From a virus, in IMG/VR virus record IMGVR_UViG_3300028025_001656, positions 1 through 29,285 of that record: a DNA stretch of 29,285 nt. One strand, written 5' to 3'. A program made the translations under genes and the position numbers. Below, piece after piece: positions 425 through 16,353 of the stretch. Below the pieces are notes generated by a model. It had not been told where the DNA came from and ran no database searches. It saw only the letters and a list, made by a program, of their open reading frames with translations. How positions within the stretch are numbered: the first letter of the stretch is position 1; every line of letters begins with the position of its first letter.

Positions 425-739
425 ATGCCAAGAGGAAATCCAAACTTAGTAAAAGGCGTAAGTGGAAACCCAGCGGGACGACCTGCTGGCATTCCAAACA
501 AGAACACGGGCAAGATTCGAGAAGCATTCCAAAAGCTAATTGAGGACAACTTGGAGAATATGACCATCTGGTTAAGCGATGTTGCAGCTGAAGACCCGAA
601 GGCGGCACTTGACCTACTTAGCAAGATGGCGGAGTACACCACGCCTAAGCTGGCAAGAGTCGAAAACAAATTAGAGGTCTCCGAAGAGCTAACTCAAATC
701 AAGGTAGAAATTGTCCGTTCTGGAAATCAAGACAAGTGA
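425..739 (+). CDS. Terminase small subunit-like protein
   Basis: 104 residues. It opens with a basic, Gly/Pro-rich motif (GNPNLVKGVSGNPAGRPAG) of the DUF5681 type that is typical of small proteins just upstream of large terminases in phages. A helical region follows (KIREAFQKLIEDNLENM), then an acidic C-terminus. The ATG at 425 is preferred over an upstream in-frame start because the conserved basic motif starts almost directly after it and the upstream frame overlaps the preceding gene. Its last 29 bases overlap the start of the large terminase. Expected role: recognition of phage DNA for packaging. Position and motif support the call; DNA binding itself is inferred. Confidence 0.7.
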   Translation: MPRGNPNLVKGVSGNPAGRPAGIPNKNTGKIREAFQKLIEDNLENMTIWLSDVAAEDPKAALDLLSKMAEYTTPKLARVENKLEVSEELTQIKVEIVRSGNQDK

Positions 740-1871
740 ACTGTTCGAACGTAACTACGAAGCACTAACCCGTATCGTAGTTAACCAAGGCGGTTCTCGT
801 TCGGGTAAGACGTATTCCATTCTTCAGATGCTGATTGTATTGGCTATGCAAGAAAAGGGGAAAGTCTTCTCTATTGCTCGTAAGTCGTTGCCATCGCTTA
901 AGATGACGGCTTATCGTGACTTTATGGAGATTCTTCGGAATATGAACTTGTACGATGAATCCAAGCACAACAAGAGCGACTTCACCTATTCATTAAACGG
1001 AAACCTGTTTGAGTTCCTGTCGCTCGACCAGCCACAAAAGAAACGGGGAGCAAGACGTGATTATCTTTTTTGCAATGAGGCAAACGAGCTAAGCTGGGAG
1101 GATTTTTTCCAAATGCTCGTTCGCACCACGGGCAAGATATGGCTCGACTACAACCCATCAGATTCGTTCCACTGGATTTACGACAAGCTGCTAACCCGTG
1201 ACGATGTAACGTACATTCAATCCACCTACAAGGATAACCCATTTCTTGACAAGTCGATTGTAGACGAGATAGAACGCCTTAGAGACACAGACGAGGACTA
1301 CTGGCGTATCTATGGCCTTGGTGAACGTGGAATGAGCCGAGCGACCATCTTTCAGTTCGGACAAGCAGAAATACCACAAGAAGCAAAACTTATATCCTAT
1401 GGCCTTGACTTTGGTTACACCAACGACCCTACCGCACTCGTGGCCGTTTACCAACTGGACACCCACCTGTACCTTGATGAACTCATTTACCGAACGGGAC
1501 TCACAAACAGGGACATCCATTCCCATTTTCAGTCGTTCAATTTAGACCGAAGGGATGAAGTCTTTGCCGATAGCGCAGAGCCGAAGTCCATTGATGAACT
1601 GCACCGATTCGGGTGGAACGTAAAGCCAACTGTAAAGGGAGCTGACTCCGTCAACGCAGGGATTGACATTCTCAAGAGGCACAAGCTATTCGTAACGCCA
1701 CGGAGCAGCAACCTAATCAAAGAACTTCAGAATTACAAGTGGGTTGAGGATAAAAACGGAAACCTTCTTAATAAGCCGATAGACGCATTTAACCACGGAA
1801 TCGACGCTGCACGTTATGCGGTAGCCAATAAGCTCTCTAAGCCTAACTATGGTCGTTACAACGTCCGTTGA
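711..1871 (+). CDS. terL: Terminase large subunit (packaging ATPase/nuclease)
   Basis: 386 residues. The N-terminal ATPase domain has a Walker A at residues 27-34 (GGSRSGKT) and a Walker B-like strand DYLFCNEANE at about 117-126 with the catalytic Glu. The C-terminal RNase H-like nuclease domain starts at YGLDFGYTNDPTAL (about 231-244), carrying the first catalytic Asp, with a second acidic site in EVFADSAEPKS and a third in the DAFNHGIDAARYA segment. Length is normal for a compact phage terminase of the Terminase_3/6 group. No ATG precedes the Walker A, so a TTG start at 711 is used, overlapping the upstream small-subunit gene. The protein pumps DNA into the prohead and cuts it. Confidence 0.96.
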   Translation: MSVLEIKTSELFERNYEALTRIVVNQGGSRSGKTYSILQMLIVLAMQEKGKVFSIARKSLPSLKMTAYRDFMEILRNMNLYDESKHNKSDFTYSLNGNLFEFLSLDQPQKKRGARRDYLFCNEANELSWEDFFQMLVRTTGKIWLDYNPSDSFHWIYDKLLTRDDVTYIQSTYKDNPFLDKSIVDEIERLRDTDEDYWRIYGLGERGMSRATIFQFGQAEIPQEAKLISYGLDFGYTNDPTALVAVYQLDTHLYLDELIYRTGLTNRDIHSHFQSFNLDRRDEVFADSAEPKSIDELHRFGWNVKPTVKGADSVNAGIDILKRHKLFVTPRSSNLIKELQNYKWVEDKNGNLLNKPIDAFNHGIDAARYAVANKLSKPNYGRYNVR

Positions 1872-1882
1872 GTTATTTACCT

Positions 1883-2548
1883 ATGGAACTGAAATTAGTA
1901 GTACCTACGTCACTTGATGAAATCACGTTGGAGCAATACCAACGCTTCGCCCGTATTGAGGGGGACGAAGAGTTTCGTCAGAAGAAGATGCTCGAAATCT
2001 TTTGCCAAGTTCCTTTTGCTGAACTGCCCAAGGTTCGCCTCGTGGACGCTAACAACGTCCTGACTGTATTAAGCAAGACCCTAAATCAAAAGCCAGAGTT
2101 AACCAAGTTCTTCGAGCTGAAGGGGACTAAATACGGATTCATTCCTGCGCTTAACGATATTTCATTGGGTGAGTTTGCAGACCTTGATAACTATATGAAG
2201 GACTGGGCTACGATGCACCGTGCAATGGCAGTATTGTATCGACCCGTCACCAAGGAGAAAGGAGAACGCTACGACATCGAGGACTACGCACCAGACGAAT
2301 CAAGAGAAGAACTATTCAAGCAAATGCCAGTATCGGTTGCCTTAGGTGCGATGGTTTTTTTTTATCGTTTAGGGAACGTATTAGCGCAACATACACTAAG
2401 CTCTTTGGCGAAACAGGTGAAGACCTCTACACAAGGGAAGCCCAGTTCGGGCAACGATGGGGATGGTATTCCTCCATCTATGCTCTGGCTTCAGGAGATG
2501 TCACAAAGTTTGAAGCAGTCACTCGACTACCTATTCATCAATGCCTGA
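1883..2548 (+). CDS. Tail-assembly-like protein, zero-frame product
   Basis: 221 residues in the zero frame. The N-terminal part (PTSLDEITLEQYQRF, then GFIPALNDISLGEFADLDNYM, then MHRAMAVLYRPVT) resembles a protein I recall next to terminases and tail genes of Bacteroidetes phages; no biochemical role is known to me. The ATG at 1883 is chosen because the expected N-terminus starts MELK; a TTG at 1868 (overlapping the terL stop) is the alternative. At 2355-2363 the gene contains nine T in a row, after which a second reading frame stays open to 2607. This is the arrangement of lambda G/GT-type tail chaperones. After about residue 180 the zero-frame sequence becomes low in complexity, suggesting that the other frame is the constrained one there. 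Confidence 0.8.
   Translation: MELKLVVPTSLDEITLEQYQRFARIEGDEEFRQKKMLEIFCQVPFAELPKVRLVDANNVLTVLSKTLNQKPELTKFFELKGTKYGFIPALNDISLGEFADLDNYMKDWATMHRAMAVLYRPVTKEKGERYDIEDYAPDESREELFKQMPVSVALGAMVFFYRLGNVLAQHTLSSLAKQVKTSTQGKPSSGNDGDGIPPSMLWLQEMSQSLKQSLDYLFINA
2355..2363 (+). other. Candidate slippery site for -1 ribosomal frameshifting (T9)
   Basis: Nine T read in the zero frame as GTT TTT TTT TAT. Bases 2356-2362 give T TTT TTT, which fits the X XXY YYZ slippery heptamer and permits re-pairing of both tRNAs after a one-base backward slip. The -1 frame has no ATG, GTG or TTG from here to its end yet stays open for 81 codons and closes by ATGA overlap with the next gene. Transcriptional slippage on the T run, or a homopolymer sequencing error, would give the same appearance. 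Confidence 0.7.
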
Positions 2549-2607
2549 CCTACCTAAGTTTTGAAAAGGAAAAGAACGAAATTGAAATACAAAAAATAAA
2601 AGGATGA
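2362..2607 (+). CDS. -1 frame extension of the tail-assembly-like protein
   Basis: 81 codons in the -1 frame, without any usual start codon, so best read as the C-terminus of a fusion of about 241 residues made by frameshifting at 2355-2363. The sequence looks genuinely protein-like: REAQFGQRWGWYSSIYALA, then GDVTKFEAVTRLPIHQCL, then TYLSFEKEKNEIEIQ, a pattern I associate with a conserved small phage domain. The stop TGA (2605-2607) overlaps the ATG of the next gene at 2604. By analogy with lambda GT the extended form would be the minor product used in tail assembly; the position well upstream of the tape measure differs from lambda. Function is inferred. Confidence 0.72.
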   Translation, partial: LSFRERISATYTKLFGETGEDLYTREAQFGQRWGWYSSIYALASGDVTKFEAVTRLPIHQCLTYLSFEKEKNEIEIQKIKG

Positions 2608-3071
2608 GGAGTTTTTATCAAGCCACCGAAAAGATTAACGAGTACCTATCGTCTCACCCGTTGGTGAAGGTTGTTACGTTTGGGGATATATTCGATGTAG
2701 ACCTAAACAAGCAGAGCATCTTTCCCTTGGCTCACATTATGGTCAATCAAGCGACATTCGCAGACCACGTAATCCGTTTCAACATTTCGGTGATGGCTAT
2801 GGATATCGTTGACGAGACCAAGCAGGATTTGAGAGACCAGAACGAGCCTTTTTTTGGCGTGGACAATCAACAGGACATTCTAAATACGACTCTTGCTATT
2901 CTCAACGGGTTGCAGTCGCAGTTACGTCGTGGCACTCTGTACACGGAGAAATACGAAATCGAAGGAGACGTAAGTTGCGAGCCATTCACTGAGCGGTTTG
3001 AGAACTTGCTTACGGGTTGGAACCTCACCTTTGACTTGATTGTACCTAACACCGAAATCAGTATCTGCTAA
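2604..3071 (+). CDS. Tail terminator/completion-like protein
   Basis: 155 residues. The signature segment VTFGDIFDVDLNKQSIFPLA followed by HIMVNQATFADHVIRFNISVM is one I associate with tail completion (tail-terminator) proteins of Bacteroidetes phages: a short alpha/beta protein whose beta strands form a hexameric ring at the head-proximal end of the tail tube. The start ATG overlaps the stop of the -1 frame extension (ATGA), which argues for translational coupling to it. The stop overlaps the ATG of the next gene (TAATG). No cysteine or catalytic motif stands out. Identification rests on family resemblance and on its place before an HK97-gp10-like gene. Confidence 0.6.
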   Translation: MRSFYQATEKINEYLSSHPLVKVVTFGDIFDVDLNKQSIFPLAHIMVNQATFADHVIRFNISVMAMDIVDETKQDLRDQNEPFFGVDNQQDILNTTLAILNGLQSQLRRGTLYTEKYEIEGDVSCEPFTERFENLLTGWNLTFDLIVPNTEISIC

Positions 3072-3577
3072 TGCCACGTCAGGAGTTAGTCGAAGCCGTT
3101 CTTAACAAGTTCGCCAAGCGTGTAATTCAACAGGCGAAGCAGAATCTTACCAAAAAGAAAAAGAACGCTTCTAAAGAGCTTTACAACTCGTTAGACTACG
3201 AACTATCAGTCGGTCCTAATTCGTTCTCTCTGACGTTTGAAATGGAGGATTACGGGGAGTTTCAGGATAAAGGTGTAAGCGGTGTTAAGCGCAAGTTCAA
3301 CACGCCATACAAATACACCAACAAGATGCCGCCACCCAAGGCATTTGCTCAATGGGTAGTCCGCAAGGGACTTGCTGGAGTCAGGGGCAAGGATGGTAAG
3401 TTTATCCCACGCAAGTCGCTTCAGTACCTTATCGCAAAGAGCGTGTTCAACAATGGTATCAAGCCGAGTTACTTTTTTAGCAATCCTTTCAAAGTGAATT
3501 TTAATAAACTACCCGCAGAGGTGGCAGAGGCATTTCAATTAACACGAGAAGACTTTCAAGCATTTACCCGTAAATAA
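3071..3577 (+). CDS. HK97 gp10-like / neck protein
   Basis: 168 residues, basic at the N-terminus (KRVIQQAKQNLTKKKKNASK). The middle has the pattern MEDYGEFQDKGVSGVKRKF, which matches the strand-turn YGxFxDxGxxG of HK97-gp10/neck-type proteins, followed by a helical C-terminal segment (LQYLIAKSVFNNGI). Such proteins sit at the head-tail junction or help tail completion. TAATG overlaps at both ends place it in one translational unit with the terminator-like gene and the tail gene downstream. The family call is by motif only; a tail-assembly role rather than head-closure is possible given that the portal lies elsewhere. Confidence 0.6.
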   Translation: MPRQELVEAVLNKFAKRVIQQAKQNLTKKKKNASKELYNSLDYELSVGPNSFSLTFEMEDYGEFQDKGVSGVKRKFNTPYKYTNKMPPPKAFAQWVVRKGLAGVRGKDGKFIPRKSLQYLIAKSVFNNGIKPSYFFSNPFKVNFNKLPAEVAEAFQLTREDFQAFTRK

Positions 3578-4716
3578 TGGCTATACCCACCGCAACCTAT
3601 CCCACGACTCCGCAGTTTGCGAGGTCGCCTATCTTTATTACGTTAACCAAGGGCGCAGGAGGCACAGACGGCCTTATTGACGCAACCCTTACGCTGCGAA
3701 TCTTTGCAGGGGATAGCACTACAAGCCCAGCGATTGACTACACGTTGTACAAGACGAGCATCAGCGATGCGCCAATCACATTTGAGATAAGCGAACTCAT
3801 TCGGGAAAAGATTATTTCGGTCTTAAAGCAATCGAGTACCAACTCCTACCAGAACGGAACTACCGAAGCGGTTTGGTGTAAGTTCTCCTTGTCCTCTAAC
3901 TACGTCAACGGTGGAACGCCTGGCTCTGGCTTGATTGTAAACAACGCTTCTTGGTTGAATACGGATGGGTGGTTGAGTTACACGCAGCATACGGGAACAA
4001 CTACAGGCCGAATGGTTACCGACCGCACGTTGTACACAGCAGTAGGTAAGGACTACGTTTTATCAGCATACGCACCATCACGAATCTACTTCTTTTACCG
4101 CAACGTGGGAGCGTCTTGGACTAACGTGGCCAACTACACGCCAAGTACGACAAGTATAAGCAGAATTGCTTATATTCCTTACGACCGAGTCAACGCATCT
4201 ACGTTCTCTGGGCTTGGTCTAAACGAGACCTTTCAAGTAGGCTTCGGGCAGGACTCGGCAACGCCTTCGGTAGTGTATACAGTGAGCGAGATTTGCGAAC
4301 CGAAATACGACCCAGTACGACTCACGTTCGTAAACAAGTTCGGGGTAACTGACCACCTTACTTTCTTCAAGGTGTCAACCGAAGACGCTACGTTCACCGA
4401 GGAGACCTATATGCCTCAGTTGTCCGTAAGCGCAACCACCGCGGCCAACGTAACACAATCGCTGCAATACCGTAAGTTCAACGTAAATAGCCGTGAGGTT
4501 ATCACGCTGAACACGGGTTGGGTAGATGAGAACTACGCCGATATTATTAAAGAGCTGATGCTATCTGAAAAGATTTCACTTAACTACGAGGGGGTAGAGT
4601 TTACTGCCAACGTAGTGCGTGACTCGGTTCGTTACCAGAAGTCCATAAACGACCGCAACATCAATTACACTATGGCCTTTGAAATCGCTTGGGATATTCT
4701 AAACGACATCCGATGA
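3577..4716 (+). CDS. Tail/baseplate structural protein with beta-rich insert
   Basis: 379 residues, rich in Ser, Thr and aromatic residues. The N-terminal about 85 residues (RSPIFITLTKG to FEISELIREKI) and the C-terminal about 120 residues (VRLTFVNKFGVTDHLTFFK to NYTMAFEIAWDIL) look like the two halves of one structural fold. They flank a beta-rich segment (about 120-230) that resembles a small carbohydrate-binding-type domain (ASWLNTDGWLSYTQHTG, then TLYTAVGKDYVLSAYA). No enzyme motif is visible. It overlaps the next large tail gene by ATGA. I read it as a tail-tip or baseplate component, with the insert possibly contacting the cell surface; this is inference from position and composition. 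Confidence 0.55.
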   Translation: MAIPTATYPTTPQFARSPIFITLTKGAGGTDGLIDATLTLRIFAGDSTTSPAIDYTLYKTSISDAPITFEISELIREKIISVLKQSSTNSYQNGTTEAVWCKFSLSSNYVNGGTPGSGLIVNNASWLNTDGWLSYTQHTGTTTGRMVTDRTLYTAVGKDYVLSAYAPSRIYFFYRNVGASWTNVANYTPSTTSISRIAYIPYDRVNASTFSGLGLNETFQVGFGQDSATPSVVYTVSEICEPKYDPVRLTFVNKFGVTDHLTFFKVSTEDATFTEETYMPQLSVSATTAANVTQSLQYRKFNVNSREVITLNTGWVDENYADIIKELMLSEKISLNYEGVEFTANVVRDSVRYQKSINDRNINYTMAFEIAWDILNDIR

Positions 4717-6737
4717 ACAAGGTAAGCATCTTTCTGGGGGAGCAGGAATTGGACGTATTCCAAGACGAGGAGATTTCAATAAATCTAAGCGTTCAGAACA
4801 TCCAAGACATAAGCAAGGTCTTCACGGACTTTACGCAGGGCTTTAGTGTGCCTGCATCGCCACGCAACAACACCATCTTTGAACACTACTACCGAACCGA
4901 CATCGTTGGCGGTGCAGACTTCCGAGTACGGCCAGAGGGGCGCATTGAAATCAACGGCTTGGTATTTCGGTATGGGGTGATTGAACTCGAAGGGGTGCAA
5001 ATGCAAAAGAACGCACCGTACGCGTACGACATCACCTTTTACGGGCAGTTGGTAAACCTTACTGACCTATTCGGTGAGGACTACCTTTACGACCTTGACT
5101 TATCAGCATACAACCACGACTACGACCAAGCAACAATCCATTCGGGATTAACAGGGACAGGCATTCATTCGGGGGTAATTATCTACCCAATGATTACGGC
5201 TCAGGACGTGTGGTATTACGACTCAGTAAACAACGACCACGGAGCGAACAACATTCACTTCCACAACGTAAACGAAAACCACGGACTTCAATACTACGAC
5301 CTGAAGCCTGCTATCCAATTGAGCAGGATTGTAGACGCTATATCTACGAAATACGGGATAAGTCTAAACATCACCGATGTAAACGATTACGACCTGTTGT
5401 ATATGTGGTGTCACCGCCGAGCTGGATATATGTACAAGGACTTGGCGTATGCAATGCCATTTGAGAAGATTGAAGCACCAGACCCCGTTAGCGTAATTAG
5501 TCCAGATTGGTGGAACTACACAACAAGTGTATTCACACCACAGGGAGCGACTGGCTCGGGTAACGTATATCGTTTTGAAGTTGACATTACAACAACCTAC
5601 ACGAGCGATTACACTATTGGCCTATTCGTAAACGGTGTACTGACCGCTCAGGTGGTTAAGAACGGAAGTTTTGCTGGTTACGCATTTGAGAACATATCCA
5701 TCACCAATGGTGAGTCGGCATATCTTGCTTTTCAAGCATCCACAAACGAGCCAGTAACATTCGACACTAACTTAATAGAAGTATCGCTTCAGTTCGCACC
5801 TAATACCGTCTACGCCTCTGCGTATAACGCTGCCTCTCAATCAATAGGAGCAACCGTGTACGTTAGTGACCTGATGCCAGAGCAAAAGGTTACCGACTTC
5901 CTCGCTTCGTTGTGTAAGATGTTTAACCTTGTTATCATACCAACAAGCGAAACGACATTCGACCTGTTGCCATTGGGCGATTGGTACGCGGCGGGAACCG
6001 ATGTCAACCTAAGTCAATACTTCGACATCACAGAAAGCCAAGTAGAAAAGCCACAACTCTACAAGCAAATAAATTTTAAGTATAACGAGACAGGGGCAAT
6101 TACAGGCGAGCAATACCGACTGACCAATAACGTGGGCTACGGAGACCTCCGCTCTAATTTCGTTTTTGACACGGACGAGGAATTGGCAGTAGAGCCGCAG
6201 TTCGACCAAATGCTTTTCAACATCTTGACCGATGAAGACGGTGGTGCTTTAACAAACATCCTCGCAGGCTATGCCGTCACTCGTGAACTGGAAACTTACT
6301 TAGGACAACCATTCCTGTTCTATGCCCCTGAGACCTACTTTATCGGGGACAACCCCGTTTCATTTATTGACGATTCAAACATTATTACAGGCCACGACGC
6401 AGTCGAGGTAGACACTATTTGGTATTGCAACGCTTCATCTAAGCTAACAAACGGAGCAACAACCTACTCACTAAACTATGGAGCAGACATCGACCCCTAC
6501 ATATTGGCAACGGTTAACAATAGCCTTTACAATACCTATTGGAGGGATTACGTCGTTGACTTATACAACCCAAGTCGTAGATTGGTGCGGGTTAGTGCTA
6601 TACTGCCTCTGGGCAAGATTCTAAACTTCGACCTTAAAAACAAGTTGATTTGGAATGGCCAAAGGTGGATTGTGAATAACGCAACATTCGCACTAACCAC
6701 AGGCAAGGCAGAGTTCGAACTTTTAAACGATGTATGA
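4713..6737 (+). CDS. Large tail/baseplate protein
   Basis: 674 residues. The ATG at 4713 overlaps the previous stop (ATGA) and is preferred to a TTG 24 bases upstream. The N-terminus (LGEQELDVFQDEEISINLSV, then DFTQGFSVPASPRNNTIF) resembles a protein I recall as a conserved tail component of Bacteroidetes siphophages. A beta-rich middle (about 265-370) is Ser/Thr/Gly-rich and looks like an inserted sandwich domain. The part after VYVSDLMPEQKVTDFLASL (about 395 onward), with KMFNLVIIPTSETTFDLLP, resembles hub-like domains that build the tail tip. No catalytic motif recognised. Probable role: distal tail or baseplate hub upstream of the tape measure. Confidence 0.6.
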   Translation: MNKVSIFLGEQELDVFQDEEISINLSVQNIQDISKVFTDFTQGFSVPASPRNNTIFEHYYRTDIVGGADFRVRPEGRIEINGLVFRYGVIELEGVQMQKNAPYAYDITFYGQLVNLTDLFGEDYLYDLDLSAYNHDYDQATIHSGLTGTGIHSGVIIYPMITAQDVWYYDSVNNDHGANNIHFHNVNENHGLQYYDLKPAIQLSRIVDAISTKYGISLNITDVNDYDLLYMWCHRRAGYMYKDLAYAMPFEKIEAPDPVSVISPDWWNYTTSVFTPQGATGSGNVYRFEVDITTTYTSDYTIGLFVNGVLTAQVVKNGSFAGYAFENISITNGESAYLAFQASTNEPVTFDTNLIEVSLQFAPNTVYASAYNAASQSIGATVYVSDLMPEQKVTDFLASLCKMFNLVIIPTSETTFDLLPLGDWYAAGTDVNLSQYFDITESQVEKPQLYKQINFKYNETGAITGEQYRLTNNVGYGDLRSNFVFDTDEELAVEPQFDQMLFNILTDEDGGALTNILAGYAVTRELETYLGQPFLFYAPETYFIGDNPVSFIDDSNIITGHDAVEVDTIWYCNASSKLTNGATTYSLNYGADIDPYILATVNNSLYNTYWRDYVVDLYNPSRRLVRVSAILPLGKILNFDLKNKLIWNGQRWIVNNATFALTTGKAEFELLNDV

Positions 6738-6886
6738 AACAGGGGTACTTAAGTTATTTAGTAGAGCTTCTTAATAGCAGCACACTTTACGGCGTGGCAA
6801 AAGAAATTGACATAGCGAAAGGGATGTACAAGTTAGACGGGAGTACAAAAAGAAAATATAGACAATGGCGGTCACCGAAACAGTAA
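6734..6886 (+). CDS. Small hypothetical protein between tail gene and tape measure
   Basis: 50 residues, basic C-terminus. The ATG overlaps the previous stop by ATGA and its last 22 bases overlap the tape measure start, exactly the packing used by its neighbours, which is the main reason to believe it. The sequence starts MKQGYLSYLVELLNSSTLYG and ends in a Lys/Arg/Trp-rich tail. No family recognised. Without it there would be a 127-nt gap inside an otherwise gapless operon. It may have a tail-assembly role, but nothing in the sequence says so. Confidence 0.6.
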   Translation: MKQGYLSYLVELLNSSTLYGVAKEIDIAKGMYKLDGSTKRKYRQWRSPKQ

Positions 6887-8703
6887 AGATTGAGGGCGAT
6901 GCTAAGGGCCTTGAGGACACGCTCAATAAGCTCAACGATAGCACCGAGAAACTCGCAGACAACATCAGCGAGGTATCGTCTATTGCTAAGAAAGGATTCG
7001 ACAACGTAGGCAAGGGAGCTAAGACCGCAACGAAGGCCGTGGAGGCCACCAAAGGCGGTATATCTAAATTGGTTGGGGCTATCAAGAGTCTAACCATTAT
7101 TGGCGTGGTAGGTGATACCATTACAGAGGTATTTACAGGCAACCAAAAGGTAGTCGACCTCTTCAACATCACCATCAACACAATTAAGATTCTATTTAGT
7201 GACCTTGCCGAGGTGGTCTTCCCAGCGGTTGCGGAAGCATTGGACAAAATCTTTAGCGACCCAGTACAGGCGATTAAGGACTTTGGTTCCTTGGTGGTTG
7301 AATACGGATTGAATCTATTCAAGCAGATGGGCAACGCCATCGGTGCGCTTGGTAGTTCGCTTGTTGCTTTCTTCAAAGGCGACTTTGCAGAAGCGTCTAA
7401 GTTGGCTAAGGAAGCATTTAGCGAGGTCGTAGACGGTGTTGTTGGCGTTGAGGAAGGTGGCATCGAAAAGATACAGAAAGCCGCAGAGCGATTGACTAAA
7501 AGAGTCAAGGAGGCGGTTAAGGACGGTGAGAAACTAAACGAGTTAGAGAAGGCCGCAGCGAAGGCGGACGTAGAACGCCAGAAGATTCAGTTGAAAGCCC
7601 AGACGTTAGCCGAGAAGCAGCGCCAAGCACGAGATGATGAGTTTGCTTCTATTCAAGAGCGTATTGAGGCAAATGAGAAACTCGGCAAGATTTTAGAGCA
7701 ACAATATCTGGACGAAGCCGCACAGATTGATAAAAAGGTTGCATTCGCACAATCGCAGTACAACATCAACAAGACAACGGAGAACTACATTGCGCTTGAG
7801 CAGGCACGTTTAGAATTGATTGACCTCGAAGAGCGTCTGGAAGGCCAGCGTTCAGAGCAGAAGATGAACTACATTTCTTTGCTCCGTGAACAAAACGACA
7901 TCGAGAAAAGCAACACGGAAGCATACCTAACTCAATTAGAGAATCAGTTAAACGCAGATGCTGAGTTAATCGACTCGGAGCGTATGCGCCTGAACTCACA
8001 GCTTGAGAATATCGACATCTTAAAGACGGCACGACTTGCCGCTATCGAGGACGAATTAAACGCAACAAAAGAAGGCACGGCTCGGTATGCGGAGTTGATT
8101 AATCAACGCAATGAAATAGAGCAAAATGCGACTATTGAAACTGCCAAGATTAAGAAAGACCTAAACCAAAAGGACATTGAAGACCGTAAGATGGTCAACG
8201 ATGCGTATATGAATTTAGCGCAGCAGTCGCTATCGGCCTTGGCTTCTCTTTCTGAGTTGTTCGCAGGTGATAACGAAGCACGTCAACGAAAGGCGTTCCA
8301 GTTGAACAAGGCCTTGCAGATTGCCGATGCCACGATGGCGACCTACACGGCAGTTGTTGGGGCGTTGGGCGCAAAGGGAGCCGATGGTCTATTGCCATTC
8401 CCTGTACGAGTAGCCAATGCAGTTGCTGCTGGAGTTATTGGTGCAGCGAATGTCGCTAAGATTGCAGCCACCAAGTTTGACGGGGCTGAAGGGCCAAGTC
8501 CAGATACTTCGTATTCTCCAACCTCCGCAGGAGCATCTACAACGCCTCAATTTAACGTGGTAGGTCGTGGTGGTGTAAATCAGTTGGCCGAGTCCGTAAA
8601 CGGAATGAACGCAAGACCCGTCCGTGCCTATGTAGTCGCTGGCGAGGTTACAACACAACAGAACTTAAATCGTCGTAGAGCAAGAACCGCAACATTCGGA
8701 TAA
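6865..8703 (+). CDS. Tail tape measure protein
   Basis: 612 residues. The N-terminus (VKIEGDAKGLEDTLNKLNDS) is the amphipathic helical start common in tape measures. It is followed by hydrophobic/Gly-Ala helices at about 65-190 (GAIKSLTIIGVVGDTITEVF; GSSLVAFFKGDFAEASKLAK), a long Lys/Glu/Gln coiled coil at about 200-440, and a second hydrophobic Ala/Gly-rich region at about 455-520 (LPFPVRVANAVAAGVIGAA). This sets the tail length and is ejected at infection. At about 0.15 nm per residue (known rule) the tail would be near 90 nm, if the whole protein spans the tube. The stop overlaps the start of the protease gene. Confidence 0.88.
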   Translation: MAVTETVKIEGDAKGLEDTLNKLNDSTEKLADNISEVSSIAKKGFDNVGKGAKTATKAVEATKGGISKLVGAIKSLTIIGVVGDTITEVFTGNQKVVDLFNITINTIKILFSDLAEVVFPAVAEALDKIFSDPVQAIKDFGSLVVEYGLNLFKQMGNAIGALGSSLVAFFKGDFAEASKLAKEAFSEVVDGVVGVEEGGIEKIQKAAERLTKRVKEAVKDGEKLNELEKAAAKADVERQKIQLKAQTLAEKQRQARDDEFASIQERIEANEKLGKILEQQYLDEAAQIDKKVAFAQSQYNINKTTENYIALEQARLELIDLEERLEGQRSEQKMNYISLLREQNDIEKSNTEAYLTQLENQLNADAELIDSERMRLNSQLENIDILKTARLAAIEDELNATKEGTARYAELINQRNEIEQNATIETAKIKKDLNQKDIEDRKMVNDAYMNLAQQSLSALASLSELFAGDNEARQRKAFQLNKALQIADATMATYTAVVGALGAKGADGLLPFPVRVANAVAAGVIGAANVAKIAATKFDGAEGPSPDTSYSPTSAGASTTPQFNVVGRGGVNQLAESVNGMNARPVRAYVVAGEVTTQQNLNRRRARTATFG

Positions 8704-9635
8704 TGAAAGTAATTGAACTCGTCCTCGAAGATACCGAAGGACTAAACGGCATTAACGCCATAAGCATCGTAGAACATCCCGCCATCGAGGAGAACTTTAT
8801 CACGTTGTCAAAAGAACACGAGGTACAGTTCGCCAAGCAGGACGAGGAGAAGCGCATCTTGATGGGTGCAGCCTTGGTTCCTAATAAGACCATCTACCGC
8901 AACCAAGGCGGAGAGGAGTTTTACGTCTACTTCTCAAAAGAGACCGTGCGTAAGGCATCTGAGTTATTCCTAATGCGTGGATACCAAGGCAACACAACGC
9001 TTGAACACGCAGCCGAACTCAATGGCTTGTCGGTTGTTGAATCGTGGATTATCGAAGACCCAGAGAAAGATAAGACTGCCATTTACGGAATGGAGTTGCC
9101 CGAAGGTACTTGGATGGTGTCAATGAAAGTCAACAATGAGGACGTCTGGACAAACTATGTAAAGACTGGCCGTGTAAAGGGCTTTTCAATCGAGGGCTAC
9201 TTCGTTGACAAGCTGCAAATGGAATCCCACTTGGAGCGCATCGAAGAAGAGGAGGCTGAGTTCCTACTTTCCAATATTATTGCCAAGATTAAAAAGGATG
9301 GCCGCCTAAAGAGCAAGAAGCGAGTCGAAATGGAGTCGTATACAGACTACCCAGAGGCCGTTCGCAACAATGCTAAGCGTGGTATCGAACTCAACGAGAA
9401 AGGCGGTAACAAGTGCGCTACGCAAGTGGGCAAGATACGAGCACAACAACTGGCAGACGGGAAGCCCGTAAGCGTGGAGACAATTAGCCGTATGTACTCG
9501 TACCTATCAAGAGCTGAGGCATACTATGACGAATCCGATACGGAAGCCTGCGGTACTATTTCCTTTTTGCTATGGGGCGGACTTGCCGCCAAGCGTTGGT
9601 CAGAATCTAAATTAAAAGAACTCGGTAAACTATGA
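8703..9635 (+). CDS. Prohead serine protease, XkdF-like, with extra C-terminal domain
   Basis: 310 residues. The N-terminal about 180 residues have the layout of the XkdF-type/prohead protease fold: VEHPAIEENFITLS near the start, RILMGAALVPNKTIYR, the likely catalytic His in GNTTLEHAAELNG, and the likely Ser in VKGFSIEGYF. It would trim scaffold and capsid inside the prohead. From about residue 213 a separate small domain begins (YTDYPEAVRNNAKRGIELNE, then KCATQVGKIRAQQLA, then MYSYLSRAEAYYD, then TISFLLWGG); it is a family I remember attached to phage head proteins but cannot name. Scaffold and capsid genes follow directly, consistent with the call. Confidence 0.8.
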   Translation: MKVIELVLEDTEGLNGINAISIVEHPAIEENFITLSKEHEVQFAKQDEEKRILMGAALVPNKTIYRNQGGEEFYVYFSKETVRKASELFLMRGYQGNTTLEHAAELNGLSVVESWIIEDPEKDKTAIYGMELPEGTWMVSMKVNNEDVWTNYVKTGRVKGFSIEGYFVDKLQMESHLERIEEEEAEFLLSNIIAKIKKDGRLKSKKRVEMESYTDYPEAVRNNAKRGIELNEKGGNKCATQVGKIRAQQLADGKPVSVETISRMYSYLSRAEAYYDESDTEACGTISFLLWGGLAAKRWSESKLKELGKL

Positions 9636-9775
9636 AAGAGACCCCAAGTCGCACATCACCCAAGAACGGCAAGCGTGGTTGCCTGTGCAAAAACAACACC
9701 TACTCCTCTAAGTGCTGCGATGGTTCGCTCAGAGCGCAGGGAGTAGGCCCTGTTAATAAAGCCCCGAATTTGTAA
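9632..9775 (+). CDS. Small Cys-rich protein in the head module
   Basis: 47 residues. The ATG overlaps the protease stop (ATGA). Four cysteines cluster in KRGCLCKNNTYSSKCCDGSL, followed by a Gly/Pro-containing tail. This short pattern is one I recall as a frequently conserved mini-protein next to head genes of Bacteroidetes phages. The Cys spacing (CxC...CC) could bind a metal ion or form disulfides; nothing tells which. It is followed by a 30-nt gap before the scaffold gene. Confidence 0.7.
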   Translation: MKETPSRTSPKNGKRGCLCKNNTYSSKCCDGSLRAQGVGPVNKAPNL

Positions 9776-9805
9776 CAAAGTAAACCCAATCAAATTAGTT
9801 GAAAT

Positions 9806-10351
9806 ATGAAAGCGAGCGAAATTTTCACCAAATTCTTTGCTGAGTTATCAGCAGTAGAAGCAGAGGTTAAGTTGGCGCAGGCCAAACTTGACAACGGAAC
9901 TGTCCTCGAAGCCGAAGCATTTGAAGCAGGCCAACCCATCTTTATCGTTAGCGAAGAAGACCGTATTGCTGTTCCAGTAGGAGAATACCTGATGGAAGAC
10001 GGACGTGTTTTGGTCGTTACCGAAGAAGGCGTGATTGGCGAAATCAAAGAAGCAGCCGCCGAAGAGGAAACACCAGAGGTAGAAGTAGAGGTTGAGGCCG
10101 CTGCTGAGCCATCTGTTGAAGACAAGATTAAGGAGCTTGTAATGCCCCTTATCGAAGAAATGAAGGCGGAGTTGTCCGCAATGAAGGAAGAGATGGGAGC
10201 CTACAAGAAGAAGCAAGAAATGTCTTCTGACGTACCTGCCGCATCCGCCATCAAACACAATCCAGAAGGTTCAGTTAAAGAGGTAGTAAGCCTGTCGCAA
10301 AACTCGCCCGAGTCTGCCCTTGACCGTGTCCTTGCCCGTTTAAACAAATAA
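9806..10351 (+). CDS. Capsid scaffold-like protein
   Basis: 181 residues, strongly acidic. The N-terminal 90 residues include a beta-type segment (GQPIFIVSEEDRIAVPVGEY, then GRVLVVTEEGVIGEI), then a low-complexity Glu/Ala/Val run (about 75-100), then a coiled-coil helix (VEDKIKELVMPLIEEMKAEL, then SAMKEEMGAYKKKQEM), and a short C-terminal region ending in DRVLARLNK. Acidic linker plus coiled coil directly between the protease and the major capsid gene is the usual scaffold arrangement. It would be degraded by the XkdF-like protease. The C-terminal basic residues may bind capsid, as known for other scaffolds. Confidence 0.72.
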   Translation: MKASEIFTKFFAELSAVEAEVKLAQAKLDNGTVLEAEAFEAGQPIFIVSEEDRIAVPVGEYLMEDGRVLVVTEEGVIGEIKEAAAEEETPEVEVEVEAAAEPSVEDKIKELVMPLIEEMKAELSAMKEEMGAYKKKQEMSSDVPAASAIKHNPEGSVKEVVSLSQNSPESALDRVLARLNK

Positions 10352-10367
10352 AACCCAAACATAACAA

Positions 10368-11294
10368 ATGCCCACAACTACTTCAATCACCACGACGTAT
10401 GCTGGCGAATTCGCTGGTAAATACGTTGCCGCCGCTCTGTTGAGCGCACCTACCTTGGACAAAGGCCTCATCGAGGTTTTGCCCAACGTACTTTACAAAT
10501 CCGTTATCCAGAAGGTTAACACGGACGACATCTTGAAGGACGCTACTTGCGACTTTGACCCTACGTCTACCGTTACCTTGACCGAGCGTATCTTGACCTT
10601 GGAAGAGTTCCAAGTTAACTTGCAAATGTGTAAGAAGGACTTCGAGCAAACTTGGCAAGCCGTTGAGATGGGATATTCCGCTTTCAAGAATGTACCTGCC
10701 TCTTTCACTGACTTCTTGATTGCCTACGCCGCCGAGCGTGTTTCTGCCCGCATCGAGCAGAACATCTGGGCTGGTGTTAACGCATCTTCTGGCCAGTTCG
10801 CAGGTTTCCAAACCTTGTTCGCTGCTGATGGAGACGTTGTAGACGTAACCGGTACTACCGTTACCGCTTCTAACGTAATTGCTGAAATGGGCAAGGTAGT
10901 TGACGCTATCCCTGCTGCCCTGTACGGCAAGCCTGACGTTTACTTGTATGTATCTCAGAACGTAGCCAAGGCTTACGTCCGTGCATTGGGCGGATTCGGA
11001 GCTTCTGGTCTGGGTGCAAATGGTGTGAACAACCAAGGTACTATGTGGTATGGTTCTGAGCCTTTGTTCTTCGACGGAATTCCCGTTGTATTGGCCGAAG
11101 GTCTTTCTGCTAACCGTATGGTTGCAGCTCAGAAGAGCAACTTGTTCTTCGGAACTGGCTTGTTGAGCGACAAGAACGAAGTTCGCCTGATTGATATGGC
11201 CGACATCGATGGTTCTCAGAACTTCCGCTTGGTAATGCGTATGAGCGCAGGTATCCAGTACGGTATCGGTTCCGACATCGTTTTCTACGCTTAA
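10368..11294 (+). CDS. Major capsid protein
   Basis: 308 residues. The Thr-rich N-terminus (TTTSITTTYAGEFAGKYVAA) is followed by an HK97-type layout: DFDPTSTVTLTERILTLEE (E-loop-like segment), LQMCKKDFEQTWQAVEMG, the helix AERVSARIEQNIWAG (spine helix), the P-domain strand GKPDVYLYVSQNVAKAYVRA, and the closing DGSQNFRLVMRMSAGIQYG with the terminal strand. Codon choice is uniform and C-ending for Asn, Lys/AAG and Phe, as expected for a highly expressed gene. It sits after the scaffold and is followed at once by an intrinsic terminator. Assignment rests on position, size and fold pattern. Confidence 0.88.
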   Translation: MPTTTSITTTYAGEFAGKYVAAALLSAPTLDKGLIEVLPNVLYKSVIQKVNTDDILKDATCDFDPTSTVTLTERILTLEEFQVNLQMCKKDFEQTWQAVEMGYSAFKNVPASFTDFLIAYAAERVSARIEQNIWAGVNASSGQFAGFQTLFAADGDVVDVTGTTVTASNVIAEMGKVVDAIPAALYGKPDVYLYVSQNVAKAYVRALGGFGASGLGANGVNNQGTMWYGSEPLFFDGIPVVLAEGLSANRMVAAQKSNLFFGTGLLSDKNEVRLIDMADIDGSQNFRLVMRMSAGIQYGIGSDIVFYA

Positions 11295-11311
11295 TTTTAA
11301 ATCAAATCCTT

Positions 11312-11354
11312 GAAGGGGGTGGTGGTGTAATAACGCCCCACCCCTTTCTTTTTT
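11312..11354 (+). terminator. Intrinsic terminator after the capsid gene
   Basis: A G-rich arm (AAGGGGGTGG, 11313-11322) pairs with CCCACCCCTT (11337-11346) across an A/T-containing loop, followed by TCTTTTTT. It lies in the 81-nt gap between capsid and tail tube genes. It could fully stop or only partly attenuate transcription so that capsid mRNA exceeds the downstream message. Confidence 0.8.
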
Positions 11355-11375
11355 AACTTACTAAATACAAACAAA

Positions 11376-11909
11376 ATGGCTTGTGCACTTTCCCTTGGCC
11401 GTATCGAACCCTGCAAGGACGTTGTAGGTGGTTTGAATGCGGTTTACTTTTTGAACTACGCAGACCTGACGGTAACTTATGACGCCACCAACACGGATGC
11501 GATTGACGTTCTCGGAAGCGGATTGACCGCTTACAAATACGACCTGAAAGGAACCTCCTCATTCGAGCAGGCAATCACTTCTTCTCGTGACAACGGAACC
11601 ACGTTCTTCGACCAAACCTTGAATCTGACCTTGCACAAATTGAGCAAGCAATCACACAAGGAAATCAAGTTGATGGCTTACGGCCGTCCGATTGTTATTG
11701 TTGAAGACCGCAATGGTAACTACTTCGTTGCTGGTTTGCAACACGGTTGCGAGGTTACAGGTGGTACTATCGTTACTGGTGCTGCTATGGGCGATATGAG
11801 TGGCTACACTCTGACACTAAACGGACAGGAGCCAGTTCCTGCGAACTTCTTGGATGGTACTTTGACTGCTGCTGGAATTACCACTATCGTATCAGGAACC
11901 GATTTTTAA
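11376..11909 (+). CDS. Major tail tube protein
   Basis: 177 residues, beta-rich. Features: MACALSLGRIEPCKDVVGGL at the N-terminus, a Tyr/Asp/Thr-rich beta region, LTAYKYDLKGTSSFEQAI, and a C-terminal half with HKLSKQSHKEIKLMAYGR then PIVIVEDRNGNYFVAGLQ and GYTLTLNGQEPVPANF, which is the order of strands typical of tail tube proteins of Bacteroidetes siphophages. Location between the capsid gene and coiled-coil genes and its separate message (terminators on both sides at 11312 and 12726) fit an abundant structural protein. Confidence is high for the tail tube and moderate for exact family. Confidence 0.8.
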   Translation: MACALSLGRIEPCKDVVGGLNAVYFLNYADLTVTYDATNTDAIDVLGSGLTAYKYDLKGTSSFEQAITSSRDNGTTFFDQTLNLTLHKLSKQSHKEIKLMAYGRPIVIVEDRNGNYFVAGLQHGCEVTGGTIVTGAAMGDMSGYTLTLNGQEPVPANFLDGTLTAAGITTIVSGTDF

Positions 11910-11923
11910 TATATCTTTGACGT

Positions 11924-12328
11924 ATGAATAAGCCGTTAGAGATTATTAACCGAATGCGGAAGGTTGAGTTGTCTGTCATAGATGAACTCAATTCTGCTAT
12001 TGCCTCCATCGGGCCACTGAATTCCGACTACGACGTTATTATTCGTAACACAAATAGTTTTTTAAAACAAGCTCGTGGATTAATTGGGTCTTACGAATTG
12101 GTTACAACGCAGGCGGCAAAGGCCTTAAAGGGATATCAGAACGTCTTATCTGAACTAACCAAAGCCCAGCGAAAGTACGTTGCGCAGGCAAAGGAGTTGG
12201 GTATTGACGCAAAGAAGACGCCAGAATACAACAAGTCTCAGCAACAATCGTTCTTTCTTGAAGTTAGAATTCAGTTCTTGAAAAACGAATTGGAGAACGA
12301 GCTGAAATCTGCCATACCTAATCTATAA
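11924..12328 (+). CDS. Coiled-coil protein downstream of the tail tube
   Basis: 134 residues, almost all helical by composition (RMRKVELSVIDELNSAIASI; LTKAQRKYVAQAKELGIDA; VRIQFLKNELENELKSAI). No known family recognised. It shares the segment KYVxxAKELG(I/V)D with the next gene, which suggests the two are paralogues. Its place after the tail tube and before a terminator suggests a tail or head role, for example a chaperone; this is inference. The gap to the tube gene is 14 nt, with a TATCTTTG sequence at 11912-11919 that resembles a Bacteroidetes -7 element but lacks a partner at -33. Confidence 0.65.
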   Translation: MNKPLEIINRMRKVELSVIDELNSAIASIGPLNSDYDVIIRNTNSFLKQARGLIGSYELVTTQAAKALKGYQNVLSELTKAQRKYVAQAKELGIDAKKTPEYNKSQQQSFFLEVRIQFLKNELENELKSAIPNL

Positions 12329-12333
12329 ATAAA

Positions 12334-12699
12334 ATGAGCAAACAAACAGTATACAATATCTTGGCTTCAGCCAAGCCAGTTAAGGTTGAGTTGGGAATTA
12401 AAGATGATTTTGAAACGGCCTTCAAAGTAGCTGTTGATAAAGAATGGGAATCTGTTTCTGCGGTGCAGGCTTTAGTTAAGCAAATTCCTAATGTTGAAAA
12501 AGCCTTGAATGATGCAAAGGCTAAATATATTGAAGCAAATAAAACGGCCGAAAAATATGTATCAGCAGCAAAAGAACTTGGAGTTGACATTAGTAGCGGT
12601 ACTCAGGCCACTATGAATTTATCTGGCTCAAAACCGCAAGTTATTGATAAGCTCATACAGAAGCTCAATAACATAAGAAACGAACTAAATACTTTTTAG
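12334..12699 (+). CDS. Coiled-coil protein, probable paralogue of the preceding one
   Basis: 121 residues, helical (EKALNDAKAKYIEANKTAEK, then YVSAAKELGVDISSGTQ, and a C-terminal helix IDKLIQKLNNIRNELNTF). The core YVSAAKELGVD matches YVAQAKELGID of the preceding gene, at a comparable position about two-thirds along the chain; the rest differs. Codons are more A/T-rich than in the tail tube gene. It ends the operon: an intrinsic terminator begins 26 nt after the stop. Function unknown; a paired role with the upstream protein is plausible. Confidence 0.65.
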   Translation: MSKQTVYNILASAKPVKVELGIKDDFETAFKVAVDKEWESVSAVQALVKQIPNVEKALNDAKAKYIEANKTAEKYVSAAKELGVDISSGTQATMNLSGSKPQVIDKLIQKLNNIRNELNTF

Positions 12700-12725
12700 T
12701 ATATTTTCTTAAGCAAGTCAGAAAG

Positions 12726-12747
12726 GCCACCTTCGGGTGGCTTTTTT
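12726..12747 (+). terminator. Intrinsic terminator with TTCG loop
   Basis: GCCACC (12726-12731), loop TTCG, GGTGGC (12736-12741), then six T. It ends the tail tube/coiled-coil unit ahead of the portal unit. The UUCG tetraloop recurs in two other terminators here (21504 and 25483). Confidence 0.9.
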
Positions 12748-12790
12748 GTTTGTAAGAAAAACAAAACGCCCGACCTGAGTTAATTAAAAG

Positions 12791-13126
12791 ATGAACATCT
12801 TAACAACAAGCGCATCAAGCCAAAACCTCGTTATCATTCCGAGGTCGTTTCCTGCTACGGTGGTTGTCAAGTTAACCAATGAGTCAACTAACACCACGCA
12901 GCAACAAACGAGAACACCAACGTCCGCCAATGGCTATATGACCATCGCTGCTGCTTGGGTATTGGAAGAGGCCAACTTCTACTTGTTGGAAGTATTTAGC
13001 GGCTCGAACTTAATCTACCGAGGTCGGGTGTTTTGCACCAACCAAACGAACTTCGAGAAGTATACCGTCAACTCTGGCGTTTACACGCAGGAGACCGCTG
13101 GGGATAATACATTTGTAATTATATGA
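12791..13126 (+). CDS. Small beta-rich structural-type protein
   Basis: 111 residues. Alternating Val/Thr/Asn strands (LVIIPRSFPATVVVKLTNES, then FYLLEVFSGSNLIYRGRVF, then FEKYTVNSGVYTQETA) suggest a single beta sandwich, as seen in small tail or head decoration proteins. Its stop overlaps the start of the portal gene (ATGA), so the two are probably translated together. No catalytic motif and no family that I can name. It starts the portal unit after the terminator at 12726; no clear host-type promoter is seen in the 91-nt gap. Confidence 0.65.
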   Translation: MNILTTSASSQNLVIIPRSFPATVVVKLTNESTNTTQQQTRTPTSANGYMTIAAAWVLEEANFYLLEVFSGSNLIYRGRVFCTNQTNFEKYTVNSGVYTQETAGDNTFVII

Positions 13127-14889
13127 GCAACATTCGATTCGTAGCAATGAACTCCTACGTTCGTCCCGAAATTAAAGAGGTGGCGAATAAAGGCTGGGTG
13201 GAGTACGGTGAGGACAACAACTACTTCCAATACCTGATTGACAGGTACAACGGAAGCCCGACCAACAACGCTATCATTAACGGGATTATCGATATGGTAT
13301 TCGGTAAAGGGCTTGGAGCAACAAACGCAGCCCAGAAGCCAGACGAGTACGCAATGATGATGTCCTTGTTTAGCAAGCAAACGGTGTCTCGTGTTTGTGC
13401 GGACTTCAAGATGATGGGCAACGCTGCCTTTCAGGTTATCTACAACAAAGACCACTCTAAAATTGTCAAGGTAGAACATATCCCCGTTGAGACCCTTAGA
13501 GCTGAGCGTTGCAACGAACGTGGCGATATTCCTGCTTACTACTACGCCAAGAACTGGGATGCCGTAAAGGCACGCAAAGAGGAGCCAGTTCGGATTGATG
13601 CGTTTGGAATGTCAAACAACGGCATTGAGATACTTTACATTAAGCCGTACAAAGCAGGATACTACTACTACGCACCTACGGACTACCAAGGTTCCTTGCC
13701 TTACGCTGATTTGGAGGAGGAGGTAGCCAACTACCACATCAATAACATTAAGAACGGACTTGCTCCGTCTATGTTGGTTAACTTCAATAACGGAATCCCA
13801 ACCGAAGAAGACCAAACGCTAATTGAACGCAGGATTGCAGATAAGTTTTCGGGTAGCTCGAATGCTGGTCGGTTTATCTTGGCGTTCAACGACAACAAGG
13901 AACTCGCAGCAACAATCGAACCCGTACAACTGTCGGACGCAAGCGACCAATACCAATTCCTATCTACGGAATGCACGCAGAAGATTATGGTAGGCCATAG
14001 GGTGACTTCTCCGATGCTTTTGGGAATTAAGGATAACTCAGGACTCGGTAACAACGCAGAGGAGCTTAAAACGGCTTCTATCCTGTTCGACAATATCGTT
14101 ATCCGTCCCCTTCAGGAAATTATCTTGGATGGCATCGAGCAAATCCTGTCGTTCAACCAAGCGTCTCTTAATATCTATTTCAAGACCTTGCAGCCTCTGG
14201 AGTTTAAGGAGGAGATTGTTGCTCCTTCTGAGGTGGTAGAGGAGTCCACAGGCGTTGAGGATAGCAACTTTAGTTTATCCGCCGAGGTCACCGATGCAGA
14301 GCTGGAGGAGGTATTCGACCGCCTTGCTGAGTTTGGTGAGGATGAAGACTTAGAAAACTTTGACTTGGTGGATGAGAGGCCTGTTGACTACGAGCAAGAG
14401 GCGTATTTAGATTCACTTCTTAAGTTAGCAAAGACAGGCGAAGCCTTCCCAAACGCCAAAAGCGAGCAGGACGGAATTAGCAAGGACGGACGCAAGTACA
14501 AGATTCGTTACGCATACGCTCCTAACGCTACCAAAAGCACGAGCCGTGACTTCTGCAAGAAGATGGTAAACGCAAAGAAGGTCTACCGCAAGGAAGACAT
14601 CGAGCGGATGGGCAAGCAATCCGTCAACGCTGGATTCGGTCCACGGGGAGCAGCCAACTACGACATTTGGTTGTACAAGGGAGGCGCACGGTGCCATCAC
14701 TTCTGGATGCGTAAGACCTACTTGGCAAAGGCGGAAGGCGTAACGCCAGATGCAAAGAATCCGAATGCTGATATTTCGGTTAACCAAGCCCGTAAAGCAG
14801 GAGTCGATTTGCCAAAGAACAACAAGAAGGTTGCCACTCGCCCTGTTGATATGCCGAACGAAGGATTTTTACCTAAAAGCAAGAACTAA
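13123..14889 (+). CDS. Portal protein with extra C-terminal domain
   Basis: 588 residues. The first about 370 residues have the portal layout: YGEDNNYFQYLIDRYNGSPT with the conserved N-terminal helix, IINGIIDMVFGKGLG, FKMMGNAAFQVIYNKDHSKI, VEHIPVETLRAE, FNNGIPTEEDQTLIERRI, and the stem/crown helix region TECTQKIMVGHRVTSPMLLG then PLQEIILDGIEQIL. It forms the dodecameric DNA channel in the head. After an acidic linker (about 370-435) there is an additional domain from about 445: KYKIRYAYAPNATKSTSR, FCKKMVNAKKVYRKEDIERM, FGPRGAANYDIWLYKGG, CHHFWMRKTYLAK. Its function is unknown to me. The location 11 kb after terL is unusual. Confidence 0.85.
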   Translation: MSNIRFVAMNSYVRPEIKEVANKGWVEYGEDNNYFQYLIDRYNGSPTNNAIINGIIDMVFGKGLGATNAAQKPDEYAMMMSLFSKQTVSRVCADFKMMGNAAFQVIYNKDHSKIVKVEHIPVETLRAERCNERGDIPAYYYAKNWDAVKARKEEPVRIDAFGMSNNGIEILYIKPYKAGYYYYAPTDYQGSLPYADLEEEVANYHINNIKNGLAPSMLVNFNNGIPTEEDQTLIERRIADKFSGSSNAGRFILAFNDNKELAATIEPVQLSDASDQYQFLSTECTQKIMVGHRVTSPMLLGIKDNSGLGNNAEELKTASILFDNIVIRPLQEIILDGIEQILSFNQASLNIYFKTLQPLEFKEEIVAPSEVVEESTGVEDSNFSLSAEVTDAELEEVFDRLAEFGEDEDLENFDLVDERPVDYEQEAYLDSLLKLAKTGEAFPNAKSEQDGISKDGRKYKIRYAYAPNATKSTSRDFCKKMVNAKKVYRKEDIERMGKQSVNAGFGPRGAANYDIWLYKGGARCHHFWMRKTYLAKAEGVTPDAKNPNADISVNQARKAGVDLPKNNKKVATRPVDMPNEGFLPKSKN

Positions 14890-15424: not shown

Positions 15425-15676
15425 ATGTCGAGTCCAAATAACAAAATATACTGGGGGCAGGGGAGCGCAATGAACCAAATCGGTTGGGGGCAGGGCTATG
15501 TCAACAACATCAACTGGGGATTGATTCACCCGAACTCGTGGGGGCATCCAGAAACGAACCTAACAGGTCAGAGCGGGGATGCTTACGACTATTTCTATTT
15601 GCAACGTGTAACGGCAGCGGGTGGGTATTACGAGGGTAGTGCTTGCGCAGTTGCTAAAATCGATTCTTGGTTATGA
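15425..15676 (+). CDS. Small Trp/Gly-rich (WGxG repeat) protein
   Basis: 83 residues. The first half repeats a short aromatic-glycine unit: IYWGQGSAMNQIGWGQGYV, NINWGLIHPNSWGHP, and then NLTGQSGDAYDYFYLQRVT. The unit WGxG occurs about every 12-13 residues, which suggests a small solenoid or a stick-like fibre segment. Located between the connector and the fibre gene, it is probably a virion protein. The next gene starts inside its stop codon (ATG 15673, TGA 15674-15676). The family is known to me only as an unannotated phage protein. Confidence 0.65.
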   Translation: MSSPNNKIYWGQGSAMNQIGWGQGYVNNINWGLIHPNSWGHPETNLTGQSGDAYDYFYLQRVTAAGGYYEGSACAVAKIDSWL

Positions 15677-16353
15677 GTTTAAGTGTAGACACTTTAAATT
15701 CTGTAAAACTATGCCGAACCTGTGAAGAGGTTAAGGATGTCTCTATGTTTGGAAAACATAGTGGACGTAGTGACGGATTGCAAAGCTGCTGCAAAAAATG
15801 TAAATCAATAAAGGACAAGGCATATCATCAAGCCAACATTGATAAAATAAAAGTAAAGGCTCACAATTATTATCTAAGTAATAAGGAGTCAATAATTAAA
15901 CGAGTTAGCGAGTACCGCATAGACAACAAGGAAGCAATAGCATCCAGAAAGGCAGAGTACTTTAGGCAGAATAAAGAGAAGTGGAATCAGTATAATAAAG
16001 ACCGAGCTAAGGTTGACCCAGTGTTTGCGTTAAAGGTTTCAATGCGTAAAACTTTGTGTAAACTTATGTCTGGCACTTATAAGTCAAAAAGAACCGAAGA
16101 GATTATTGGTTGTTCGTATGTTGAATTTAAAGAGCATATAGAGTCCAATTTTGAGTATTGGATGTCTTGGAGCAATAGGGGCTTATACAATGGCCAGATG
16201 TCTCACGGATGGGATATTGACCACGTAGTACCTTTATCTACCGCCAGAAGCGTAGAGGACATTATTAGATTAAATCACTACACGAATCTGCGCCCGTTGT
16301 GTAGTTACATTAATAGAAACATAAAGAGAGGGAATTATGAGCAGCCTGTATGA
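15673..16353 (+). CDS. HNH endonuclease (homing-type), free-standing
   Basis: 226 residues from ATG 15673, chosen over a TTG six bases upstream because it overlaps the previous stop (ATGA). N-terminal treble-clef-like part has CRTC ... CCKKC (about 15-42). It is followed by a Lys/Asn/Tyr-rich linker, and a C-terminal HNH core WDIDHVVPL with NLRPLCSYINRNIKRG. This layout is a typical phage HNH nuclease. It lies between two structural genes, is much more A/T-rich in its codons than they are, and its stop overlaps the next start. That pattern suggests a selfish insertion. The target site cannot be seen. Confidence 0.88.
   Translation: MSLSVDTLNSVKLCRTCEEVKDVSMFGKHSGRSDGLQSCCKKCKSIKDKAYHQANIDKIKVKAHNYYLSNKESIIKRVSEYRIDNKEAIASRKAEYFRQNKEKWNQYNKDRAKVDPVFALKVSMRKTLCKLMSGTYKSKRTEEIIGCSYVEFKEHIESNFEYWMSWSNRGLYNGQMSHGWDIDHVVPLSTARSVEDIIRLNHYTNLRPLCSYINRNIKRGNYEQPV

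Follow-up and report, generated by a model that had tools for sequence, protein, structure and literature searches.

A −1 reading frame at a conserved run of at least nine T in a probable tail assembly chaperone gene of Bacteroidota phages, with RNA polymerase slippage as the favoured mechanism

The G/GT genes of phage lambda comprise two overlapping ORFs in the tail module. A net −1 shift fuses the first product to a C-terminal extension, giving a short and a long form. Xu et al. 2004 reportedly described the −1 frameshift of tail genes as conserved. The shift in tail chaperone genes is a textbook example of ribosomal recoding; seven bases suffice for a ribosomal −1 slip, and nine are not required. 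P2 gpE and gpE+E′ (phrog_103, phrog_166; cf. Pfam Phage_TAC_7) are likewise related by a −1 frameshift fusion, and the gpE gene adjoins the tape measure gene. In dnaX, slippage or frameshifting is used to the same end, depending on the bacterium. In Shigella mxiE and in the 9A/9T IS-element transposases two ORFs are joined via a U or A run by insertion of an extra base into the mRNA, which for mxiE takes place at a U run (PMC1088944). The gene described here shares with lambda G/GT the two overlapping ORFs, the extension joined at the C-terminus by a net −1 shift, the short and long forms and the location in the tail module. Unlike lambda G/GT, it carries a homopolymer of at least nine bases in place of a heptamer and lies right after terL, several genes ahead of the tape measure gene, which it does not adjoin as the P2 gene does. 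Unlike it, mxiE and the IS transposases are not phage tail genes, and their proteins are unrelated.

The window, the whole stretch of DNA analysed, is a virus record of 29,285 bases. All features given below for the frameshift gene and its two landmark neighbours are on the plus strand. The zero-frame ORF, at 1883–2548, begins MELKLVVPTS and encodes 221 aa, the short, G-like form. The T9 recoding site, at 2355–2363, reads ATG GTT TTT TTT TAT in the zero frame. The −1 frame tail, a T-like domain at 2362–2607, has 81 sense codons followed by TGA at 2605–2607, is conserved and is helical in its model; its peptide from 2362 reads LSFRERISATYTKLFGE...QFGQRWGWYSSIYALASGD... in translation. ATG, GTG and TTG are absent from these codons, and the frame is open upstream as far as 2191. 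The zero-frame stop (2546–2548) precedes the tail stop by 59 nt. The predicted fusion, the long, GT-like form of 241 aa, spans 1883–2607, as indicated by translation and by the −1 frame in relatives; residues 1–160 are common to both forms. The dual-frame region occupies 2364–2548 and is marked by fewer substitutions at tail wobble positions. The tail stop and the next start overlap as ATGA at 2604–2607, and the next ORF (2604–3071) is conserved downstream. The run, the start-less frame and the ATGA overlap had been described in the initial annotation, whose coordinates and translation were confirmed.

This run is the sole homopolymer of nine or more bases in the window. About 0.36–1.2 A or T runs of that length are expected from a Markov model of the window. 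By itself the T9 run is unremarkable for this composition; the case therefore rests on conservation of frame and run length. Further T7 or T8 runs are present in the window at 2849–2855, 19526, 20756, 21522 and 25502, all outside the frameshift gene.

The gene for the terminase large subunit lies directly upstream, at 720–1871 (PF04466, E 1e-28; phrog_2, E 8e-44). The tail tape measure protein is encoded at 6865–8703 (phrog_9483, E 2e-13; phrog_3336, E 8e-12). Four ORFs separate the frameshift gene from the tape measure gene; both belong to the same module and are non-adjacent. Of 102 loci, 82 have terL immediately upstream; the first gene downstream is conserved in 94 of 103 loci and the second in 92 of 100. 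Placement after terL had been called unusual. The gene is indeed not next to the tape measure gene, but the position is a trait of the whole family rather than of this phage. The order of modules in the interval 720–14889 is itself unusual: terL, the frameshift gene, tail genes with the tape measure, head proteins and, last, the portal. The head protease is at 8703–9635, a likely capsid protein (by position only) at 10368–11294 and the portal at 13123–14889.

Relatives were located in IMG/VR. Single-protein searches found 35 loci with the zero-frame protein as query and 265 matches with the tail, of which 80 were kept. Every locus with both parts has a T9 run and a −1 tail, even where identity of the N part is down to 36%. 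Profile searches gave at least 600 stretches for the N part and at least 600 for the tail. With the two parts located independently by HMM, 175 distinct junction contexts were obtained among the matches listed; in all 175 the tail is in the −1 frame, and the runs are T9 (148), T10 (26) and T12 (1). Genome searches added four relatives (L206, L207, L372, L373), each with an exact T9 when read by eye. A final, deeper profile built on these relatives gave 25 loci, all with an exact T9 and with the N part off the tail by one frame in the same sense; in many of these the N part is only 16–24% identical to that of the window. Pooling of the 175 with 27 more loci, the −1 assignment of the deep loci being taken from the deeper profile search, gave 187 distinct contexts among the matches listed: T9 160, T10 26, T12 1, and none shorter than nine. 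Three bacterial MAGs (Bacteroidetes, Flavobacterium) also carry the T run and the −1 tail. Searches of IMG/VR for in-frame relatives with deeper profiles returned −1 sites only, and tblastn searches of phage isolates, with other members of the family as queries, returned the Nonlabens phages only, or nothing. Because frame and T run are conserved, comparison of the sequences makes the existence of a programmed −1 fusion near certain. The initial annotation had proposed such a fusion of about 241 residues, as the putative minor form, to be checked in homologues at the DNA level; the predicted product is 241 aa, the −1 frame was found in all relatives located, and both the run and the frame are conserved among the 187 distinct contexts listed.

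Two cultured phages of Nonlabens (Persicivirga), P12024L and P12024S, carry a homologue at 33% identity with the junction CTT TTT TTT TAT CAT and the same tail. Their gene pairs 40/41 and 38/39 resemble the window in the position after terL, the T9 run and the −1 tail, and differ in that the zero-frame extension is only about 25 residues long. Each pair is annotated as two separate hypothetical proteins. In the P12024L record the tail is an ORF of its own from an internal ATG (P12024L_41, L117:4528–4695), apparently the source of PHROG 38404 (55 aa). P12024L_41 and its P12024S counterpart are the −1 extension of the preceding gene. The annotation is thus corrected for the isolate genomes examined and for PHROGs (32199, 38404), where the second half had been split off as its own gene.

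About 9–10 proteins of the structure library match the N model and the tail model within one chain. Judging by these model matches, there are probably relatives in which the two parts share a frame. Single chains of this kind in BFVD include UniProt A0A6J5N0W0, A0A6J5MY57, A0A6J5SVK3, A0A6J7WDG4, A0A6J7WJY4, A0A6J5N3F3, A0A516L611 and A0A516L5A8. Homologues with both parts in one frame and no T run had been expected to mark the present arrangement as a sequencing error or simple mutation. The single chains answer to this in part, but about 190 conserved T-run sites exclude both explanations here.

Three explanations without a recoded product were considered. Sequencing or assembly error, or decay of the gene, would fit the error-prone nature of homopolymers and a tail without its own start codon. 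It is refuted by the conservation of frame and length: a T run of the same kind and the same frame occur in about 190 distinct contexts, in three MAGs and in two isolate genomes, both frames seem constrained, and the probability left to it is negligible. Phase variation, in which replication slippage would toggle the fusion among virions, has a precedent in some bacteria, where long homopolymers serve as contingency loci, a point also discussed in PMC1088944. It predicts a mix of frames, and none of the 175 profile-located contexts among the matches listed is in frame; the T10 and T12 sites retain the −1 relation. It is considered extremely improbable. The tail could also be a separate protein made from an internal start or by translational coupling, as the P12024L/S annotation has it for P12024L_41. 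This is hardly more credible, since 157 of 170 relatives lack ATG, GTG and TTG in the stretch from the run to the conserved WG motif and the conserved tail sequence starts directly at the run.

The two frames of the overlap were compared for constraint. Third codon positions of the tail change at 0.13 inside the overlap vs 0.22 after the zero-frame stop, the pairs compared not being independent. Within the overlap, the tail frame has an amino acid identity of 0.51, compared with 0.38 for the zero frame. Because the third positions of the tail change less in the overlap, both frames seem constrained and both products seem to be used, as far as sequence comparison indicates. Part of the conservation of the zero-frame extension is forced by the tail frame. 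The extension is predicted to be disordered (pLDDT below 50 at residues 184–206 and 211–221). The initial annotation had described it as low-complexity; it nevertheless seems constrained rather than free to vary.

The run occurs in all three codon phases among the 187 contexts listed. Observed phases are NTT TTT TTT followed by TAY, TGG, TGY or TCG; TTT TTT TTT followed by CTG or GCA; GGT, GCT, ACT or AGT followed by TTT TTT TTG; and a run shifted upstream by one codon, in which TTC or TTG replaces the second TTT. T lost on one side of the run is compensated on the other. The codon after the run starts with T except where nine T precede it already. The residue at this position is Tyr (113), Trp (31), Leu (18), Phe (10), Cys (8), Ser (6) or Ala (1) in the 187 contexts listed. 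On a tree of 106 lineages the phase or length of the run changes 19 times and the residue at its end 27 times; the length is never below nine. If a T_TTT_TTN heptamer in the zero frame were all that is required, shorter runs would be expected in about 16% of lineages. The chance of observing none is 6e-8 (97 lineages, 80% identity) or 6e-4 (45 lineages, 60%), figures that are indicative, being based on observed column frequencies with codon columns and lineages taken as independent. Long runs are rare elsewhere in these phages: across 148 kb of their remaining coding sequence, T8 or longer is seen once where synonymous shuffling predicts about 6.5, and A9 or longer twice where it predicts about 15. 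Across the junctions compared, the conserved feature is a length of at least nine rather than a slippery heptamer. T_TTT_TTT is present in the zero frame at every site, as any T9 implies.

RNA polymerase slippage was therefore weighed against ribosomal slipping. The RNA–DNA hybrid of the polymerase is 9–10 bp (PMC5009743), and A/T runs are selected against from length nine in many bacterial genomes (PMC1088944). The polymerase would slip on T9, which fills the hybrid, and some of the transcripts would gain one U; translated normally, these mRNAs would be read into the −1 frame and yield the 241-aa fusion. Alternatively, the same two-product gene would be served by a ribosome slipping −1 at U_UUU_UUU, with Phe codons in the P-site and A-site as in lambda G/GT, and the T's beyond the heptamer would be retained for the residues encoded or to boost slipping. 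This reading is in keeping with the in-frame T_TTT_TTT at every site and with the −1 ribosomal frameshifting used by known tail chaperones (PMC5009743); since every T9 contains the heptamer, the sequence alone is compatible with it at every site. T7, T8 or U_UUU_UUA/C would serve a ribosome equally well, yet none is found in the 187 contexts listed, and the length of the run is compensated on either side. A downstream structure or SD-like stimulator is not conserved: predicted RNA structure at the junction gave a mean z of −0.25 downstream vs −0.26 to −0.39 for the upstream background, in a model that excludes pseudoknots, and an SD-like motif upstream of the run was seen in only 9 of 85 sites, with no conserved Shine-Dalgarno-like signal. 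Ribosomal slipping is held to be a real but minority possibility. RNA polymerase slippage is favoured because a run of at least nine is conserved though T7 would suffice, and because no RNA structure or SD-like signal is conserved; it is judged the likelier source of the fusion, with reasonable though limited confidence. Transcriptional slippage, named in the initial annotation as an alternative, has thus become the better-supported mechanism, the conserved element being the run of nine or more and not the heptamer. Taken whole, a two-product chaperone gene whose fusion arises by RNA polymerase slippage is the best explanation, and its chance of being right in every part is put slightly above even.

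It appears rather likely that RNA polymerase slippage at T9 governs the ratio between the two tail chaperones in a large and ancient group of Bacteroidota phages. In that event the proportion of the long form would be set by the host polymerase and not by the host ribosome, and slippage in tail chaperone genes would form a natural parallel to dnaX. The comparison of divergent phages points to another machine that gives the same two-protein output. A full-text literature search of incomplete coverage for slippage in phage tail chaperones yielded nothing but reviews and papers on unrelated systems, and novelty is accordingly unproven.

The gene is probably a tail assembly chaperone of the G/GT type, a reading based on architecture, synteny and weak profile links; homology does not prove the role. 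As in lambda G/GT, the N part common to both forms would have the tape measure protein as its binding partner, and the C-terminal extension the tail tube protein. The only good match of the N part is phrog_32199 (unknown function), at residues 3–179 with E 4e-25. phrog_166, which P2 gpE matches too, is matched by 10 of 69 relatives, at best with a borderline E of 0.0014. TAC_7 is matched by one of the 69 (E 0.075). Sequence homology to the G and T proteins of lambda and to P2 gpE was rejected, there being no significant match to the family profiles. The initial identification as a G/GT-like chaperone is upheld by synteny, architecture and these weak links, although a significant family match is absent. 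N part and tail were folded apart in AlphaFold. The AF2 model of the N part has pLDDT 83 overall, with residues 1–183 folded; that of the tail has pLDDT 89 and is all helical. Both match uncharacterised phage proteins in the structure library. A protein of ctCpR1 annotated as a tail assembly chaperone (BFVD) was matched with prob 0.98, E 0.01 and TM 0.36–0.40. Against PDB, Foldseek and VIA both left the N part without a match above background, and VIA returned none for the tail; no solved structure is thus matched, by which the fold is not shown to be new. Flavobacterium phage 6H, a weak structural match, was set aside as not clearly belonging to this system: close to its end the gene reads TGT TTT TTC TAC, with only T6, and its −1 frame stops immediately.

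A divergent homologue with an exact T9 and a −1 tail is present at L375:11581–12329 (G1406 contig 60), on a bacterial contig without clear phage genes alongside. This copy could be a remnant or domesticated. Within the window, a 228-aa ORF at 15667–16353 lies between structural genes and, by eye, has the look of an HNH-type endonuclease (CxxC pairs, late DHVVPLS).
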